Shown piece by piece: positions 8,105 to 63,479 of a stretch of DNA of 64,000 nt (its first letter is position 1; every line of letters begins with the position of its first letter). The notes beneath the pieces are model-generated. The model had not been told where the DNA came from, searched no databases, and saw nothing but the letters and a program-made list of their open reading frames with translations. Source of the DNA: Flavobacteriaceae bacterium (GTDB lineage: Bacteria > Bacteroidota > Bacteroidia > Flavobacteriales > Flavobacteriaceae); assembly GCA_016744415.1 (NCBI GenBank), contig JADGEL010000005.1, forward strand, positions 62,001 to 126,000. Reading direction: 5' to 3'. The translations under genes and the position numbers were made by a program.

Positions 8105-10561
8105 ATGAGAAAATTATTATGCCTTTGTGCATTATTTCTAGGCATTACACTAAATGCCATTAACAATTCTAATATTGATATCGCAAAAACTGGAACTATA
8201 TCTGGTACTGTAACTGATGCAACTACCAACGAAAAACTACCTTATGTATCTATCGTAATTAAAGACAGCGAAGACACTATCTTAACAGGAGGTATTACGA
8301 ACGATAAAGGCCAATTTATAATTGAAAAAATTCCGTTTGGAGAACAAACTATCGAGGTTCAATTTATTGGATATAAAACAGATTCTCGTAAAATTAATTT
8401 CACTAAAGACAATGCTAAACATGATATAGGTGCTGTTGCATTAAATATAGATGCCGCACAACTAGATGAAGTTGAAGTTAGAGCAGAAGTATCAACCGTA
8501 GTTCAAAAAATTGACCGCAAGGTAATCAATGTAGGTAAAGATTTAACTTCAGCAGGTACAACAGCTGCAGAGCTATTAAACAATGTACAATCTGTAACTG
8601 TAGATTCACAATCTGGAAATATCAGTTTACGTGGAAATGAAAATGTACGTGTATTGGTAGATGGAAAACCTACTAATGTTAGTGCTGCACAATTGCTAAA
8701 ACAAATTCCTTCAACATCAATCAAACAGATTGAGTTAATTACAAATCCATCTGCAAAATATAGCCCTGAAGGAATGAGCGGAATCATAAACATTGTATTA
8801 TATAAAAGTGCCAATCAAGGATTTAACGGCTCTGTTAATTTAGGTGTTACCCAAGGAATTAATACACGTTTTAACGGGTCGTTAGATTTAAACTACAAAA
8901 CTGGAATTGTAAATTTCTTTGCCAATTATGGACATAATAATGGCAAGAGTGATAATGAAGGATTTGTAAATAGATCAGACAATAACTCTCACCAAGAGTT
9001 TGAGTTTGATAGCGATAACAAATCAAATGTGCTTAAAATTGGAGCTGATGTCTATATCAATGAGAAAAATACAGTTTCGTTTTATACAACTCAGAATCAA
9101 TACGACAATAGTAGTGATGGAATCGTTCAAATTTCTGATGATGGAATCTTAGCAATAGATAGCTATAATAATTCTAAGACAGATAGTAAAAATGCTTCAT
9201 ATAATTTAAACTACAAATTAGATTTTGAAAAAGAAGGACACAATATTGAATTTGAAGCTTCTATTGCCAATTACAAAAGCCCTGAAGATGCAATTAATGG
9301 AGAGTTCCTATTTCCTTTAGATAAAGTCAATAATTATTTTACTGATATTGATAACAAGCGCAATAGTCATTTATACAATTTAGATTATGTGAATCCATTA
9401 TCAGAAAATGGCAAATTAGAACTAGGATTTGAAATTAGAGGAAGCCACTCTGAAAACGAGCAATTGACAGATCAACATCAATATCAATATGATGATATTA
9501 CTGGCGAGATGATTCCTGACTCTACAAATCCTGGATATTATTTAACCGACCCATTACCACCTAATTCAAGTTTTGATTATCAAAGAGATATTTATTCTGG
9601 ATATGCTACATATAGCCATCAATTTGAAAAATTGACTATGCAAATCGGTGCGCGAATTGAACAATATGAAATAGACGGTAAATTTGTTCAAGGGAGTGAA
9701 AATGAAACAGTGACCGATGAAATCTTTTCTATATACCCATCAGCATTCTTTACTTATAATGCAAGTGAAAAAAATCAATTTCAAGTGAGTTTTAGTAGAA
9801 GAGTTGATAGACCATCACTACAACAAATTAATCCTATCAGACAATGGAGTACTCCTAGAATCACTTCAGTTGGTAATCCAAATTTGAATCCTCAATTTAC
9901 AAATTCGTATGAATTTAATTATACGCGTCAATTAGAAAAAGGATCAGTTACTTTCGGAACTTTTTACCGTAAAGTAAATGATAACATTACCAGAATTTTA
10001 AATCTTGACCCTTTAGATGAGAATAAAGTTTTGTTAACCTATGCAAATACTGATAGTAATAACAGATACGGATTCGAAGCCTCTTTCAACTACGGTTTAA
10101 CTAAATGGTGGAGGATAAATGCAAGTACTGATTTGTATGTACAAAAAGAAGCGGGAGTAGCAAATGGAACCGAATTAGAAATTACGAATAACGCTTTTAA
10201 TGCAAGAATCAGCAACAATTTTAAAGTTACAAAAGATTTAAGATTGCAATTATTTACAATGTATAGAGGTGGTGGTAAAAGTATTCAATTTGAAGTTGAC
10301 CCAATGTGGATGATGAATGCTGGCGCAAGTTACAATGTCTTAAAAGGTAAAGGAACTATTTCATTTAGAGTGAATGACATTTTTGAAGGAATGAAATTCG
10401 CCTTTGAATCAGAAAATCCTTACCCATCTCAAGGAGAATTTAATTGGGAAAGCAGAACAGCTTATCTTGGATTTCAATACTCATTTGGTGGTGGAAAAAA
10501 TAAAGCTAGAAAAAGAAAAAGTAGAGATGATAACGAAACTTCAGGAAGTGGATTTCTATAA
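8105..10561 (+). CDS. TonB-dependent receptor-like outer membrane beta-barrel protein
   Basis: An 818 aa outer-membrane protein. A signal peptide covers residues 1-18 (ending L-N-A). A carboxypeptidase-like regulatory domain follows at about 30-115 (G-T-I-S-G-T-V-T-D-A...L-P-Y-V-S-I). The plug-like domain is at about 150-230 (L-L-N-N-V-Q-S-V...V-R-V-L-V-D-G-K-P, then P-S-A-K-Y-S-P-E-G-M-S-G-I-I-N-I). The C-terminal barrel is rich in alternating aromatic strands. It resembles the outer membrane beta-barrel family rather than SusC, and no susD partner is adjacent. The unusually basic, Gly/Ser-rich tail (residues 795-818) follows the last strand. Substrate cannot be inferred. Confidence 0.88.
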   Translation: MRKLLCLCALFLGITLNAINNSNIDIAKTGTISGTVTDATTNEKLPYVSIVIKDSEDTILTGGITNDKGQFIIEKIPFGEQTIEVQFIGYKTDSRKINFTKDNAKHDIGAVALNIDAAQLDEVEVRAEVSTVVQKIDRKVINVGKDLTSAGTTAAELLNNVQSVTVDSQSGNISLRGNENVRVLVDGKPTNVSAAQLLKQIPSTSIKQIELITNPSAKYSPEGMSGIINIVLYKSANQGFNGSVNLGVTQGINTRFNGSLDLNYKTGIVNFFANYGHNNGKSDNEGFVNRSDNNSHQEFEFDSDNKSNVLKIGADVYINEKNTVSFYTTQNQYDNSSDGIVQISDDGILAIDSYNNSKTDSKNASYNLNYKLDFEKEGHNIEFEASIANYKSPEDAINGEFLFPLDKVNNYFTDIDNKRNSHLYNLDYVNPLSENGKLELGFEIRGSHSENEQLTDQHQYQYDDITGEMIPDSTNPGYYLTDPLPPNSSFDYQRDIYSGYATYSHQFEKLTMQIGARIEQYEIDGKFVQGSENETVTDEIFSIYPSAFFTYNASEKNQFQVSFSRRVDRPSLQQINPIRQWSTPRITSVGNPNLNPQFTNSYEFNYTRQLEKGSVTFGTFYRKVNDNITRILNLDPLDENKVLLTYANTDSNNRYGFEASFNYGLTKWWRINASTDLYVQKEAGVANGTELEITNNAFNARISNNFKVTKDLRLQLFTMYRGGGKSIQFEVDPMWMMNAGASYNVLKGKGTISFRVNDIFEGMKFAFESENPYPSQGEFNWESRTAYLGFQYSFGGGKNKARKRKSRDDNETSGSGFL

Positions 10562-10606
10562 AATCTAATTTCTAATTAGTATAAAAGCAGTTTTTTTAAG
10601 TTGATG

Positions 10607-10647
10607 AAAAGAGGTTTTTGGTTTTTTATAATCAAGACCTCTTTTTT
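10607..10647 (+). terminator. Intrinsic terminator after the receptor gene
   Basis: Stem AAAAGAGGT / ACCTCTTTT closes a loop of about 22 nt and is followed by a T run. Confidence 0.7.
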
Positions 10648-10670
10648 ATTGCACCAACCTCAACCGCTTA

Positions 10671-10711
10671 CTAACGGTTTTCCGTGAGTAAATACTAACG
10701 GTTTTCCGTGA
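10671..10711 (+). promoter_or_regulatory. Direct pair of ACGG-N4-CCGT operator-like repeats
   Basis: CTAACGGTTTTCCGTGA occurs twice without change at 10671-10687 and 10695-10711, a 24 bp period. Each copy holds the inverted repeat ACGG-N4-CCGT. A related half-site, ATCACGG at 10719-10725, follows just upstream of the first small-RNA promoter. This is the arrangement expected for cooperative activator binding upstream of a -33 box. The cognate regulator is unknown. Confidence 0.6.
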
Positions 10712-10735
10712 AACTAAAATCACGGTTTATGGGTA

Positions 10736-10766
10736 TTGTTCTAATAACAATAGTGATGTATCTTTG
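10736..10766 (+). promoter_or_regulatory. Promoter of small RNA unit 1
   Basis: TTG at 10736-10738, a 20 bp spacer and TATCTTTG at 10759-10766 form a near-ideal Bacteroidota promoter. The 5' flank ATCACGG....TGGGTATTG is repeated exactly 200 bp downstream. A second TATCTTTG (10770-10777) lies 11 bp further but lacks a correctly spaced TTG. Confidence 0.75.
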
Positions 10767-10771
10767 AAATA

Positions 10772-10883
10772 TCTTTGTTCGTCATAAAACAAGTATAATT
10801 ATCAAAAAAAAATAATTTGAAGTGTTTGGGGTTCTTTAAATTATTTAATTGAAATCCACTGGTGTCATTGCTGGTGGATTTTT
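10772..10883 (+). ncRNA. Putative small RNA 1 of a tandem pair
   Basis: Predicted from a strong promoter (10736-10766) to an intrinsic terminator (10852-10883), about 112 nt, with no ORF of note. A central hairpin pairs AAATAATTT (about 10809-10817) with AAATTATTT (about 10838-10846) and displays a GTTTGGGG-type G-rich loop. Copy 2 shares the same order: A/T stem, GGGG loop, matching stem arm, then a terminator hairpin. No gene on the plus strand follows, so this is not a leader of a coding gene. I do not recognise the family. Ends are inferred, not measured. Confidence 0.6.
10852..10883 (+). terminator. Terminator of small RNA 1
   Basis: AAATCCAC pairs with GTGGATTT around a 14 nt loop and is followed by TTTT. 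Confidence 0.6.
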
Positions 10884-10895
10884 AATTTATAAAAC

Positions 10896-10912
10896 TCCCG
10901 GAAAACCGTTAG
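10896..10912 (+). promoter_or_regulatory. Third ACGG-N4-CCGT-type repeat, inverted
   Basis: TCCCGGAAAACCGTTAG is the reverse complement of the 17 bp repeats at 10671 and 10695 with one mismatch. It sits at the same distance upstream of promoter 2 (ATCACGG at 10919-10925) as repeat 2 does from promoter 1. Confidence 0.55.
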
Positions 10913-10935
10913 ATAAAAATCACGGAAACTGGGTA

Positions 10936-10966
10936 TTGCACAGAATGTAAATCACGTATATCTTTG
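10936..10966 (+). promoter_or_regulatory. Promoter of small RNA unit 2
   Basis: TTG at 10936-10938, a 20 bp spacer and TATCTTTG at 10959-10966: the same spacing and boxes as unit 1, shifted by exactly 200 bp, with the same ATCACGG....TGGGTATTG flank. Confidence 0.75.
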
Positions 10967-10971
10967 TAGTG

Positions 10972-11082
10972 TTATTATTGATAATCCGGAAAAAATTAAT
11001 AGCACAATATAATTTAGAAAGTGGGGACTTAATTAAATTATTTAAATAGAAAAACCATCTGCTTATGCAGATGGTTTTTTTT
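10972..11082 (+). ncRNA. Putative small RNA 2 of a tandem pair
   Basis: Predicted from its own promoter (10936-10966) to a strong terminator (11051-11082), about 111 nt. ATAATTTA (about 11009-11016) pairs with TAAATTAT (11035-11042). Inside, AAGT-GGGG-ACTT forms a short stem that presents a GGGG loop. The block from ATAATTT to the terminator aligns with small RNA 1, whereas the first 35-40 nt and the terminator stems differ, so the shared part is likely the functional core. It is oriented head-on to the fabH-like gene and ends 25 bp from it. Confidence 0.6.
11051..11082. terminator. Bidirectional terminator between small RNA 2 and the fabH-like gene
   Basis: A perfect 12 bp stem (AAAACCATCTGC / GCAGATGGTTTT) with a TTAT loop and T runs on both strands. 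It can end both the plus-strand small RNA and the minus-strand fabH-like gene. Confidence 0.85.
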
Positions 11083-11107
11083 ATTATTTTAAAGATTAGT
11101 GTTTAAA

Positions 11108-12115
11108 CTACCAGCGTATAATTACACTACCCCAGGTAAAGCCACTACCAAAAGCAGCAAGCACTACCAAATCATTTTCTTTAATTTTTCCTTTTTCCCA
11201 TGCTTCAGTCAAAGCTATAATAATAGAAGCCGCAGTCGTATTTCCATATTTCATAATATTATTATACACTTGATCATCTCTTAACTGAAACTTCTTTTGA
11301 ATGAATTGTGATATCCGTAAATTAGCTTGATGAGGAATTAACATATCAATATCAGATACTTCTAAGTTATTTGCTTTTATCCCTTCCATGATCACTTCAG
11401 AAAATCGAACTACAGCATTTTTAAATACAAAAGTTCCATTCATATAAGGATAATAAGATTCATCATCCGGATCATTATCTTCTAAAATTTGAGGAACCCA
11501 GTGTGCAATACTAGGCGCTTCAACAACCAATTCTCTAGCATGTTTCCCTTCAGAATGTAAGTGTGTAGATAAAATTCCTTTGTTATTATCTTCTGTTCTA
11601 CTCAATACTGCCGCTCCTGCTCCATCTCCAAAAATAACAGACACACCTCTACCCCGTGTTGTTAAATCCAATCCGCCAGAATGAAACTCAGCACCTATCA
11701 CCAAAACATTTTTATACATGCCTGTTTTTATAAATTGATCGGCAACTGACATGGCATATACAAAACCTGAACATTGGTTACGAACATCCAAAGCACCAAT
11801 GGTTGGCATATCTAAAATATCTTGAATTTGAACACCACAACCAGGAAAATACATGTCTGGGCTTAAGGTTGCAAACACAATAAAGTCAATATCATCTTTA
11901 GTTAAACCAGATCTCTCAATTGCAATTCTTGCTGCTTTTGCACCCATGGATGATGACGTTTCACTACTTCCTTTTTCTATCCAACGACGTTCTTTAATAC
12001 CGGTTCTTTCTTGAATCCATGCGTCATTGGTATCCATCATTTTAGATAAATCATCATTGGTTACCACATTGTCTGGAACAAAATATCCCATTCCTGTTAT
12101 CTTTGAGTTGTACAT
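11108..12115 (-). CDS. 3-oxoacyl-ACP synthase III family protein
   Basis: A KAS III-type condensing enzyme of 335 aa. The thiolase-fold triad is intact: Cys115 in R-N-Q-C-S-G-F, His262 in I-P-H-Q-A-N and Asn292 in Y-G-N-T-T-A-A-S. The G-x-G-A-G-A-A-V loop is near 163-170. FabH enzymes start fatty acid synthesis by joining an acyl-CoA to malonyl-ACP. Flavobacteria often carry several KAS III paralogues, and this one stands alone rather than beside rpmF-plsX, so it may serve a special lipid or starter unit. An insert near 205-225 (acidic, E-D-N-D-P-D-D-E-S) is longer than in E. coli FabH. Confidence 0.88.
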   Translation of the reverse strand: MYNSKITGMGYFVPDNVVTNDDLSKMMDTNDAWIQERTGIKERRWIEKGSSETSSSMGAKAARIAIERSGLTKDDIDFIVFATLSPDMYFPGCGVQIQDILDMPTIGALDVRNQCSGFVYAMSVADQFIKTGMYKNVLVIGAEFHSGGLDLTTRGRGVSVIFGDGAGAAVLSRTEDNNKGILSTHLHSEGKHARELVVEAPSIAHWVPQILEDNDPDDESYYPYMNGTFVFKNAVVRFSEVIMEGIKANNLEVSDIDMLIPHQANLRISQFIQKKFQLRDDQVYNNIMKYGNTTAASIIIALTEAWEKGKIKENDLVVLAAFGSGFTWGSVIIRW

Positions 12116-12315
12116 ATATATATCTATTCTAAAAAGTTAATTCAAAATTACTAAATATATATTTGTTATGCTTTGAATAATATTTTTAAATTTCTGAAAG
12201 TGATTTATAACTTTTGAATTTGTCATTTAGAATTTCTTCTGTCATCTTGTCACAAAGATTCAATTGGTATTTTTTTTGACTAAGAGATTTATATAAATTT
12301 AAAATACATATAATT

Positions 12316-14223
12316 ATGGCAACTGGAAACATTAATGTAACAGCCGAAAATATTTTCCCAATAATTAAAAAATTCTTGTACTCTGATCATGAAATTTTTT
12401 TACGCGAATTAATATCAAACGCAACTGATGCAACCTTAAAACTAAAACATCTATCTACTTTAGGTGAGGTAAAAGGAGATATTGGCAACCCAATGATTGA
12501 GGTTATTATTGACAAAGAAAATAAACAAATCAAAATTATTGACCAAGGTGTTGGTATGACAGCAGAAGAAGTTGAAAAATACATCAACCAAGTTGCTTTT
12601 TCTGGAGCTGAAGAATTTGTAGAAAAATATAAAGATGCAGATACAGGGATCATCGGTCACTTTGGCCTTGGATTTTACTCAGCCTTTATGGTAGCAGAAA
12701 AAGTAGAAATTTTTACAAAATCATTTAAAGAAAATTCTAAAGCGGTGCGTTGGGAATGTGACGGAAGTCCACAATACACATTAGAAGATACAGATAGAGA
12801 CGTAAGAGGTACAGAAATTGTTTTACATATTGACGAAGATTCTGTCGAGTTTTTAGAAGAAGCAAAAATTGGTGGCTTGTTAACTAAGTATAACAAGTTT
12901 ATGCCAATCCCTATTAAGTTTGGAACCAAAGAGGTTGATGATGCAACGCACACTCCAAAAACAACTAAAGATAAAGACGGAAAAGAAACGACTGAACCAC
13001 AGAAAAAAGTTACAGTTGATAATATCATCAACAATCCAACTCCGGCTTGGACTAAACAACCAAGTGAATTAGAAGATGAGGATTACAAATCTTTTTATAG
13101 AGAGTTGTATCCAATGCAGTTTGAAGAGCCATTGTTTAGCATACATTTGAATGTAGACTATCCTTTTAACTTGACAGGAATTTTATATTTTCCAAAAATC
13201 AGCAAAAATATAGATCCACAAAAGGATAAAATTCAACTATATCAAAACCAAGTTTTTGTAACAGACAATGTTGAGGGTATTGTACCAGATTTCTTACAAA
13301 TGTTGAGAGGTGTTATTGATTCTCCAGATATTCCGCTGAATGTTTCACGTAGTTATTTACAAGCTGATGGTGCGGTAAAAAAGATTTCAAGTTACATTAC
13401 AAAAAAAGTAGCTGACAAATTAATAAGTCTGTTTAAAAACGACAGAAAAGCTTTTGAAGAAAAATGGGATGATATTAAAATAATCATCGAATACGGTATG
13501 TTATCCGAAGATAAATTCTTTGATAAGGCAAACAAATTTGCATTATACCCTACTGTAGATAGTGAGTATTTTATTTGGGATGAATTGGTTGAAAAAATCA
13601 AAGACAACCAAACTGACAAAGATGACAAAACAGTAATTTTATATGCTTCAGATGCAAAAGCACAACACAGCTTTATACAAGATGCAAAAGATAAAGGATA
13701 CCAAGTATTATTACTAGATTCTCCTATCATTTCTCACTTAATTCAGAAATTAGAAACAAGCAATGAAAATGTTTCATTTGTAAGAGTTGATTCTGATCAT
13801 ATAGATAACCTCATCAAAAAAGATGATACTAAAATTAGTAAATTATCTGAAGATGAACAAGCGAGTTTAAAAACAGTATTGGAATCTAACATTCCAAAAG
13901 AAACATATACAATTCAGTTAGAGTCAATGGATTCTAGCGCAAATCCGTTTATTATTACTCAGCCAGAATTTATGCGTCGAATGAAAGAAATGCAAGCGAC
14001 TGGAGGTGGTGGCATGATGGGGATGAGTAATTTTCCAGACATGTATAATTTGGTTGTAAATACCAATAACGAATTGGTAGGTGAAATATTAAATACCAAA
14101 ACTGCTAAAAAGCAAGAACGTTTAATTAAACAAACTTTTGATTTAGCCAAATTATCTCAAAATCTATTGCATGGTGAGGAGTTAACAAACTTCATTAAAC
14201 GTAGTTATGAGTTAATTAAATAG
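12316..14223 (+). CDS. htpG: Molecular chaperone HtpG (Hsp90)
   Basis: The 635 aa cytoplasmic Hsp90 homologue. The N-terminal GHKL ATPase domain shows E-L-I-S-N-A-T-D-A near 31-39, D-Q-G-V-G-M-T near 76-82, and G-H-F-G-L-G-F-Y-S near 114-122. The middle domain contains the conserved N-V-S-R-S-Y-L-Q near 343-350. The C-terminal part has a Met-rich segment near 555-580 and ends in the dimerisation region. A charged insert at about 215-235 (many K, T, D) separates the N and middle domains, as in other Bacteroidota. It is monocistronic: a terminator follows, and no CIRCE element is visible upstream. Confidence 0.96.
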   Translation: MATGNINVTAENIFPIIKKFLYSDHEIFLRELISNATDATLKLKHLSTLGEVKGDIGNPMIEVIIDKENKQIKIIDQGVGMTAEEVEKYINQVAFSGAEEFVEKYKDADTGIIGHFGLGFYSAFMVAEKVEIFTKSFKENSKAVRWECDGSPQYTLEDTDRDVRGTEIVLHIDEDSVEFLEEAKIGGLLTKYNKFMPIPIKFGTKEVDDATHTPKTTKDKDGKETTEPQKKVTVDNIINNPTPAWTKQPSELEDEDYKSFYRELYPMQFEEPLFSIHLNVDYPFNLTGILYFPKISKNIDPQKDKIQLYQNQVFVTDNVEGIVPDFLQMLRGVIDSPDIPLNVSRSYLQADGAVKKISSYITKKVADKLISLFKNDRKAFEEKWDDIKIIIEYGMLSEDKFFDKANKFALYPTVDSEYFIWDELVEKIKDNQTDKDDKTVILYASDAKAQHSFIQDAKDKGYQVLLLDSPIISHLIQKLETSNENVSFVRVDSDHIDNLIKKDDTKISKLSEDEQASLKTVLESNIPKETYTIQLESMDSSANPFIITQPEFMRRMKEMQATGGGGMMGMSNFPDMYNLVVNTNNELVGEILNTKTAKKQERLIKQTFDLAKLSQNLLHGEELTNFIKRSYELIK

Positions 14224-49443: not shown

Positions 49444-49500
49444 ATAATAGGGATTATGAATTAAGGCTTAAACTCCTTCGATAATCTTTATCCTATTTAT
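49444..49500 (-). promoter_or_regulatory. Structured spacer before rpsD, possible S4 leader
   Basis: On the minus strand, ATAAATAGGAT and ATCCCTATTAT can form an imperfect stem enclosing a small AAGG / CCTT hairpin. It lies 12 nt before the S4 start codon. S4 autoregulation is known in other phyla; the assignment here is speculative. Confidence 0.3.
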
Positions 49501-61355: not shown

Positions 61356-63479
61356 TTAACCTTTTGCTTTTTCAATTACTGCTTCTGAAATATTTGAAGG
61401 AGTTTGTGAGTAGTGAGAGAATTCCATTGTTGACGTTGCTCTACCAGAAGATAATGTTCTTAATGTAGTTACATATCCAAACATTTCTGATAATGGCACA
61501 TCAGCTTTTACAACTTTTGCTCCTGCTCTGTCATCCATTGCATTCACTTGACCTCTACGCCTATTTAAATCTCCAACGATATCACCCATATAATCTTCAG
61601 GTGTTACCACATCCATTTTCATCATTGGCTCAAGAATTACAGCACCTGCTGCTTTCGCTGCTGCTTTATAACCTAGCTTTGCTGCCAATTCAAAAGATAG
61701 AGCATCAGAATCCACAGGGTGGAACGACCCATCTTTCAATGTGATTTTCATTGTATCCATTTCAAATCCTGCTAAAGGACCATTTTTCATAGCCGCTGCA
61801 AAACCTTTTTCTACTGAAGGAATAAATTCTTTTGGAATACGTCCACCTTTAATTTGATCAACAAACTGCAATCCTGGACCTTTGAAATCTTCATCAGCTG
61901 GACCCATTTCAAATACGATATCACCAAACTTACCACGACCACCAGATTGCTTTTTATAAGTTTCTCTGTGTTCAGCCATTCTAGTTAAAGCTTCCTTGTA
62001 TTCTACTTGAGGCTCACCTTCATTAACTTCAACCTTAAATTCTCGCTTCAATCTATCAACGATAATATCCAAGTGCAATTCTCCCATTCCTGAGATAATT
62101 GTCTGCCCTGAAGCTTCATCAGTTTTTACTTGGAAAGTTGGATCTTCTTCAGCTAATTTTGCCAAAGCCATTCCTAATTTCTCAACATCAACTTTAGTTT
62201 TAGGCTCAACAGCAATACCAATTACTGGGTCAGGAAAGTCCATAGATTCTAAAACTATAGGGTGCTTTAAGTCTGACATTGTATCACCAGTTTTAATATC
62301 TTTAAATCCAACAGCAGCACCAATATCTCCAGCTTCAATATACTCAATTGCATTTTGCTTGTTAGAGTGCATTTGGTAAATTCTAGAAATACGCTCTTTT
62401 TTACCTGAACGATTATTTAAGATATAAGAACCCGCATCTAAATGACCTGAATATGCTCTAAAAAATGCTAAGCGTCCAACAAAAGGATCTGTTGCAATTT
62501 TAAATGCTAAAGCAGCAAATGGCTCCTTTACATCTGGCTTACGAATTTCTTCATTATTTGTATCTGGATTTACACCAACAATACCTTCTTTATCTAAAGG
62601 TGATGGTAAATAACGACAAACAGCATCTAATAAGAACTGTACACCTTTGTTTTTAAATGCAGAACCACAAATCATAGGAATGATTGCCATATCCATTACT
62701 GCAGCACGCAATGCATTGTGCACCTCCTCTTCAGTAATAGAATCTTCATCTTCCATGAATTTCTCTAAAAGATTCTCATCATAACTTGCTACTTCTTCAA
62801 TTAAAAGTGCACGATATTTACGAGCTTCTTCTTTCATATCCTCAGGAATATCGACAATATCGAAAGTCGCTCCTTGAGTTTGATCATGCCAAATAATAGC
62901 ACGGTTTTTTACTAAATCAACAACGCCTCTAAAATCTTCTTCATCACCTATGTTCAAAACGATTGGCACCGCGTTTGACTTTAACATGTCTTTAACCTGC
63001 TGACAAACCATCATAAAATCAGATCCTTGACGGTCCATTTTATTTACAAAACCAATTCTTGGCACCTTGTAATTATCAGCTAATCTCCAGTTAGTTTCAG
63101 ATTGTGGCTCAACACCATCAACGGCACTAAACAAAAACACCAAACCATCTAATACACGTAACGATCTATTTACCTCTACAGTAAAATCAACGTGACCCGG
63201 AGTGTCAATAATATTAAAGTGATATCCTTTCGTTTCGGAAGTTGGTTGCCCATTTTCAACTGGGAATTTCCATTCACAAGTTGTAGCTGCAGAAGTAATT
63301 GTAATACCTCTTTCTTGCTCTTGCTCCATCCAGTCCATTGTTGCAGCACCATCATGTACTTCACCAATTTTATGAGAAACTCCTGTGTAATATAGTACAC
63401 GCTCAGTTGTAGTTGTTTTCCCTGCATCAATATGTGCAGCAATACCAATATTTCTAGTGAATTTTAAATCTCTTGCCAT
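61356..63479 (-). CDS. fusA: Elongation factor G
   Basis: A 707 aa translocase GTPase. G1 is [10 protein letters not shown] near 15-24, G3 D-T-P-G-H near 92-96, G4 N-K-M-D near 146-149, and domain IV contains S-G-G-R-G-K-F-G-D near 524-532. Full length. It sits between rpsG and rpsJ as in the str operon, but tuf is not adjacent. Confidence 0.97.

Follow-up and report, generated by a model that had tools for sequence, protein, structure and literature searches.

In the Gac/Rsm system, a LuxR/FixJ-type response regulator controls, through palindromic upstream sites, several sRNAs (RsmY and RsmZ) with a repeated loop motif. The Qrr RNAs of Vibrio are several sibling sRNAs under one response regulator, a sigma-54 activator, and they depend on Hfq. 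Bacteroidota make little use of Shine-Dalgarno signals, and to our knowledge few base-pairing sRNAs of this phylum are known with both an indicated regulator and predicted targets. Going by the parts of the papers available to us, FopS and GibS of Bacteroides are multicopy sRNAs that base-pair close to the start codons of mRNAs for surface proteins and so repress them; RbpB is a partner of FopS, and the authors describe any further regulator as unknown (PMC11697453). Rfp18 of Flavobacterium psychrophilum has one stem-loop predicted to pair with predicted targets, and the mRNA of two metalloproteases is reduced in its mutant, as far as the excerpt tells (PMC9723704).

Here we describe a twin-sRNA locus whose apparent logic resembles that of Gac/Rsm, Qrr and, among Bacteroidota, FopS. 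It lies in a window (the whole 64 kb stretch of DNA that was analysed) from a marine, Urechidicola-like member of the Flavobacteriaceae; the genome to which the window belongs (G000) has 3.13 Mb, and its nearest relative among the genomes compared is G007. Between an outer-membrane barrel gene (8105–10561, + strand) and fabH (11108–12115, - strand, recognized by a domain search), positions 10671–11085 hold two promoter–terminator units of about 110 nt each. A sequence-only reading of this stretch had claimed two TTG-N20-TATCTTTG promoters 200 bp apart, each with a terminator of its own and neither with an ORF, and all of this holds. TTG stands at 10736 and 10936 and TATCTTTG at 10759 and 10959, giving promoter A (10736–10777, with a second TATCTTTG at 10770) and promoter B (10936–10966), both on the + strand and both of the housekeeping form of Bacteroidota. 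With starts estimated from these promoters, sRNA unit A extends from 10773 to 10885 and unit B from 10969 to 11083 (+ strand; a 5' hairpin occupies 10969–11005), and no ORF of at least 60 aa overlaps either of them. A terminator scan of 9600–12400 called two sites, exactly those of the units: 10851–10882 for unit A and 11048–11081 for unit B, the latter also lying 3' of the convergent fabH.

Shuffled versions of 9600–12400 gave 1.0 terminators on average (sd 0.9), so two terminators are not above chance by number alone, and a sigma-70-type promoter scan, which does not cover Bacteroidota promoters, also stood at chance (14 found, 14.7 expected). With both counts near chance, it is conservation in relatives that lifts the locus above it. 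This conservation, which the earlier reading had named as a check, was found: the units are present in related genomes. The 200-bp spacing is kept in G007 and not in G005, the other genomes with at least two units in the spacer.

Ahead of its terminator each unit carries a hairpin with a G-rich loop (+ strand): in unit A at 10810–10846, with a 13 bp stem and the loop UGUUUGGGGUU at 10823–10833, and in unit B at 11008–11042, with GUGGGGAC at 11021–11028. The initial idea of a duplicated regulatory RNA gene survives in part. There are indeed two non-coding units side by side, each with its own promoter and terminator; a simple duplication was rejected, because loops, 5' parts and stems differ between the units, which are therefore not copies but two related types, A (loop UGUUUGGGGUU) and B (loop with GUGGGGA). 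That they belong to no assignable RNA family was borne out by a covariance-model search. Rfam, including the 6S-flavo and Flavo-1 models, has no match at gathering cut-offs at this locus, and the 28 permissive matches in 10560–11110 all fall below the cut-offs (e.g. 34.3 against 60 bits); no known Rfam RNA was found for the units or for the hairpin elements searched (see below). The only Rfam match at gathering in the window is an S4-Flavobacteria ribosomal leader (RF03141, 45.9 bits) at 49452–49486 (- strand). The part of the literature covered yielded no description of this locus.

The common flank of the two units, which the sequence-only reading had given as ATCACGG plus TGGGTATTG, is present at both and is longer than described; it appears to form an array of operators and not just the surroundings of a promoter. 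The candidate operator, CACGG-N4-CCGTG, recurs with a spacing of 24 bp in an array that ends on the -33 element. Upstream of unit A, box 1 (10673–10687) and box 2 (10697–10711, 24 bp after box 1), both reading AACGGTTTTCCGTGA on the + strand, contain ACTAACGGTTTTCCGTGA twice with this period, followed by a degenerate third site (10720–10738, + strand, TCACGGTTTATGGGTATTG) that ends in the TTG serving as the -33 element of promoter A. Upstream of unit B there is a box with one mismatch (10896–10910, - strand, AACGGTTTTCCGGGA) and a half site (10920–10938, + strand, TCACGGAAACTGGGTATTG) that overlaps the -33 element. The layout with a degenerate third site at -33 is similar in relatives.

Exact boxes number eight in the window's own genome, at five loci: the twin-sRNA locus, the gene of a LuxR-type response regulator (RR; three boxes upstream, 24 bp apart), two genes for putative lipoproteins of ~545 aa and one for a putative lipoprotein of 150 aa, where two further sites (two mismatches) extend the 24-bp spacing. 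Boxes with mismatches are not enriched, either in this genome (33 matches with at most two mismatches against 109 for the reversed control) or in 15 relatives (67 against 66, summed, with at most one mismatch), and the case is therefore built on exact matches and their positions. There are 34 exact boxes in 15 further genomes, with none in the RR-less genomes G003, G012 and G013, and none in G004 and G015, where the RR promoter is different. Among the 14 other RR loci read, 10 have boxes ahead of the RR gene; of the remaining four, G004, G015 and G059 have a different palindrome there, as judged by eye (CACTGAATTCAGTG in the RR promoter of G059), and G029 has none. The site may have changed together with the regulator in G004, G015 and G059. 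G059 also has TGGGTATTG with TCACTG half sites upstream of two similar secreted-protein genes (L055, 957 and 5024). The two genes for ~545-aa putative lipoproteins with a box upstream (L039, G000 C4:722449; L040, G000 C2:791463) have simple repeats, (AAAC)n and (CCAAAAA)n respectively, directly after the likely start codon, and could be phase variable.

The RR operon consists of the LuxR-type RR gene, a gene for a 96-aa protein (L058:3748-4038, - strand; found in several relatives and without a Pfam match) and a kinase gene encoding TPR and HATPase domains. Just after the RR gene in two genomes (L116 in G010 and L119 in G004), the small gene of the operon has a leader, AAAACCCCAAAA, that matches the A loop over 9 nt, a possible feedback site for that loop.

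We compared the presence of the RR gene and of the units in the 12 of 14 genus genomes that have a detected fabH and a readable spacer; G004 and G008, in which the RR gene is present, were left unscored because no fabH match was found. The spacer holds A and B in G000 and G007, A, B, A and B in G005, A alone in G010 and G001, and B alone in G009 and G002. All seven genomes with an intact RR gene have one to four spacer units, and none of the five others has an intact unit (two keep relics): neither G003 nor G012 has a unit at the fabH spacer or an RR match at E 1e-50; G013 likewise lacks an RR match and keeps a relic unit with neither promoter nor terminator; in G006 the RR gene is a pseudogene and the spacer is degraded; and G011 has no unit and an RR frame that, about 130 residues in, passes into another gene, perhaps through an assembly join. 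By hand, seven of seven against none of five gives 1/792 (1/330 without G011), a figure that ignores kinship and incomplete genomes; RR absence is counted at the E 1e-50 threshold in genomes 78–92% complete. A fabH tree places G006 as sister to G010 (support 0.98), G011 as sister to G002 (1.00) and G013 with G009 and G001 (0.97), with the placement of G003 and G012 not settled, which implies several separate losses of the units if their ancestor had them. Comparison makes RR-driven transcription probable, through the boxes common to the RR promoter and the co-occurrence of RR and sRNAs, and we consider it highly probable that the locus encodes RR-controlled sRNAs.

The seven A units differ in one loop base and in the 5' arm, whereas UUUGGGGUUC and the 3' arm CUUUAAAUUAUUU are invariant; the B units keep GUGGGGA (UUUUGGGGA in G002) on a changing stem. 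Across eight divergent units (a set that includes one relic and one unit folded with GGGG in place of its GGGA loop), a hairpin formed of a unit's own arms has a mean energy of -6.46 kcal/mol, against -2.35 for swapped arms (56 combinations); with all 11 units, 22 of 110 swaps are as good as or better than the unit's own pairing, six of 10 for G005A4. G005 has two further A-like units elsewhere, the second of them weak (34.6 bits) and located before a gene reading as a DEAD-box helicase, which brings its total to six. In another genus, G016 has a unit with UUGUGGGGA on a different stem, near a gene reading as S-adenosylhomocysteinase; a one-mismatch box lies about 100 nt before its likely promoter, perhaps by chance, as there are four such matches in this genome against two in the control. 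Run with filters that miss weak matches, model R1 finds type A in two Urechidicola genomes out of 299 of the family; its scores of 67.8–72.6 bits for seven units are no evidence, because it was built from those units. The exact A core occurs in four contigs of the species collection: three are those of G007, G010 and G001 (Flavobacteriaceae or Bacteroidetes bins), and a Ruminococcaceae contig was taken as chance.

Complements of both loops, GUCCCCAC (for B) and AACCCCAA (for A), are concentrated in two CAP-lipoprotein loci, on the sense strand. The loop B complement was searched as STCCCCACW in five genomes, with 20 sites against 14 for the reversed control in G000, 14 against 18 in G007, 18 against four in G005, 14 against two in G009 and 33 against 44 in G016, so that the count exceeds the control in only three of the five. 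Sites of GTCCCCACA fall within the two CAP-lipoprotein loci in seven of seven cases in G000, seven of nine in G009 (one other is the sRNA itself), three of six in G007 and four of seven in G005; no tight target cluster was found in G016 among the matches listed. Forty stretches around B-complement sites were fetched, and the 18 with clusters were kept (nine CAP1 and nine MarR loci; L221–L228 and L271–L285); several of the 22 left out are single sites in coding sequence. TCCCCAC is found 79 times on the sense strand of these 18 loci and five times on the antisense strand, a count that, like the ranking for B below, is partly circular, as the loci were picked by the B complement, and that comes from orthologous, hence not independent, loci. 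The A loop complement AACCCCAA, unused in the choice of loci, occurs 16 times on the sense strand, 15 of them in MarR loci, and never on the antisense strand. As background, the window has three AACCCCAA on both strands of its 64 kb, and CCCC at -20 to -1 in none of 63 genes.

GUCCCCAC often stands directly before start codons. Such a C-rich leader (C-leader) precedes a small gene (79–103 aa, MKLITYKP-type) in all nine CAP1 loci, the CAP lipoprotein gene in eight of nine (none was seen in G005) and the MarR gene in seven of nine MarR loci (in G005 the motif is missing from the MarR leader). Three CAP proteins, one MarR and one small protein were assigned with Pfam, and the others by likeness. 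When duplexes with 71 leaders were ranked, the top partners of loop B were CAP1, MarR and the small gene, an outcome that the choice of loci would lead one to expect. For loop A, CAP1 came third, the small gene fifth and MarR ninth, and two window leaders outscored every target leader. The best loop A duplex among the 71 leaders (-15.6 kcal/mol) is that of the window gene starting at 63479 (- strand). The 10-mer complement of A, GAACCCCAAA, was not seen before any gene start, i.e. with CCCCA at most 12 nt from the first ATG of a frame of at least 30 codons (31 sites, seven of them sRNA copies; 30 fetched). Before the MarR start in L222 (~1385–1425), an inverted repeat around TTGTATATACAATTGTTG, perhaps MarR's own operator, adjoins a CCCC-loop hairpin that contains the MarR start codon.

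The C-leaders are conserved and loop-complementary, yet they also occur in G003, G012, G011 and G006, which have neither an intact RR gene nor an intact sRNA; the motif is therefore not kept for the twin sRNAs alone, and these would be one input among others on the C-leader genes. The CAP and MarR loci also contain hairpin elements of ~85 nt with a B-type loop on the strand opposite to the target genes. Outside the RR units, 26 of 27 elements (sites without a hairpin left out) fold better on the G strand, opposite the CAP gene, for which reason a reading of the elements as C-loop decoys was dropped. On the G strand the loop is mostly GUUGUGGGGACGA, often followed by a U-rich tail. Several elements lie after the stop codon of an OmpA-like gene in convergent orientation, and a recognizable promoter precedes only one of the 27, so that promoters of their own were rejected and the elements look like 3'UTR hairpins. 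As they, like the C-leaders, are found in G003, G012, G011 and G006, the RR sRNAs are at most one source of G-loops, which is the main weakness of the target claim and also gives rise to the boldest reading, taken up below. Arrays of GTCCCC every 33–82 nt, mostly without a long hairpin, lie between the CAP region and the terminal hairpin (sense coordinates: L273 3261–3397, L274 2716–2894 and L271 3239–3428). The GUCCY-hairpin, a Bacteroidetes hairpin motif (PMC2864571, consulted as an excerpt), recalls by its name the C strand of the elements, which fold better on the G strand.

We slightly favor, on balance, a pair of trans-acting sRNAs that the RR activates and whose G-loops pair with C-rich leaders, repressing translation. 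A signal through the TPR histidine kinase would lead to phosphorylation of the LuxR-type RR, which would bind the tandem CACGG-N4-CCGTG operators touching -33 and activate transcription of sRNAs A and B; through the boxes upstream of its gene it would control its own operon too. The units, operators, RR co-inheritance, hairpin conservation and leader complementarity are supported by sequence comparison, from which the chain as far as the sRNAs is drawn; RR DNA binding and the direction of regulation we infer. Each sRNA would display a G-rich loop on an A/U-rich hairpin before the terminator, the type B loop pairing with GUCCCCAC and the type A loop with AACCCCA(A), in or near the translation starts of the CAP-domain lipoproteins, the ~100-aa protein and the MarR regulator. 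That such loop–leader pairing represses translation is our best guess, an even call; we infer pairing and its sign from complementarity and position.

The sequence-only reading had likened the units to Qrr or RsmY/Z. The design of one RR with several sRNAs is supported by the common boxes and the co-occurrence, and membership of either family does not: CsrA (PF02599) was found in none of the 14 genus genomes (completeness 69–99%; control matches in three of 14 known genomes) and Hfq (PF17209) likewise in none (control matches in five of 14 known genomes), so a CsrA sponge and an Hfq-dependent RNA were rejected. With Gac/Rsm the locus shares a LuxR-type RR as its indicated regulator, palindromic upstream sites, several sRNAs and a repeated loop motif; unlike RsmY and RsmZ, its units occur in a genus where no CsrA was found, their G-rich loop has complements in mRNA leaders, and their sites reach -33. 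Like the Qrr RNAs, they are several siblings, probably under one RR, with pairing in trans assumed; in contrast to Qrr, no Hfq was found in the genus, and a housekeeping-type promoter (TTG-N20-TATCTTTG by reading in both units, not a sigma-54 promoter) goes with a LuxR-type RR instead of a sigma-54 activator. FopS and GibS, as described in the portion of the paper available, are likewise multicopy Bacteroidota sRNAs pairing near the start codon of surface-protein mRNAs; the twin units differ from that description in their indicated response regulator and G-loop seed (PMC11697453). Rfp18, again by its partial description, is similar as a Flavobacteriaceae sRNA with predicted stem-loop pairing (PMC9723704). 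Taken together, the sequence data point to an undescribed RNA switch without Hfq or CsrA.

Could the locus amount to no more than a terminator and promoter region next to fabH, under RR control and with no functional RNA? Wherever the spacer carries units, in seven genomes, they do adjoin fabH, and terminator B also faces fabH, but the additional A-like units elsewhere in G005, the G-loop unit beside another gene in G016, hairpins that are kept by structure and RR-less species whose spacer lacks intact units make this very improbable. Even harder to credit is that the units encode tiny peptides. Some units, e.g. G005B2 and G016B, have short open frames with a start, and an LGFFKLF frame stays open in type A; however, no start or frame is common to the 14 units compared, the LGFFKLF frame, judged by eye, does not keep its amino acids where the sequence varies, and the second frame through the G-run is closed by a stop 1–6 codons upstream in all units and has a start in just five of 14. 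The peptide reading is therefore not supported.

RR-controlled protein sponges of the RsmY/Z type, whose G-loops, nearly the same on differing stems, would sequester an RNA-binding protein, would explain why the loop is kept while the stems change, the several units per genome (up to the six of G005, one of them weak) and an RR control as in Gac/Rsm. We regard such sponges as unlikely, given that CsrA was found in none of 14 genomes (the RNA-binding proteins searched for were CsrA and Hfq) and that the loops match C-motifs in mRNA leaders, a match needless for a sponge. A shade more plausible, though still improbable, is that the RNAs act on other targets and the network of C-leaders and G-hairpins belongs to another regulator or to the elements themselves, the loop match being due to chance or shared origin. 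The C-leaders that persist in RR-less genomes speak for this, as do the 27 G-loop elements outside the RR units, nearly all more stable on the G strand and some in RR-less genomes; against it, both loop types match two motif classes in the same loci, and the AACCCCAA bias arose in loci chosen without it.

Beyond the favored reading of an RR-activated sRNA pair, we tentatively suggest, as something rather short of an even prospect, a genus-wide G-loop/C-leader code in which the RR sRNAs and the terminator-like hairpins opposite the targets would show matching G-loops and together set translation of the CAP lipoproteins, the small protein and MarR by loop pairing next to the start codon, without Hfq or CsrA. 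The locus offers a testable chain from kinase to regulator to sRNA to leader, and a single genus supplies natural cases of gain and loss. If the code is true, C-rich leaders would be sRNA landing sites on mRNAs without Shine-Dalgarno sequences.
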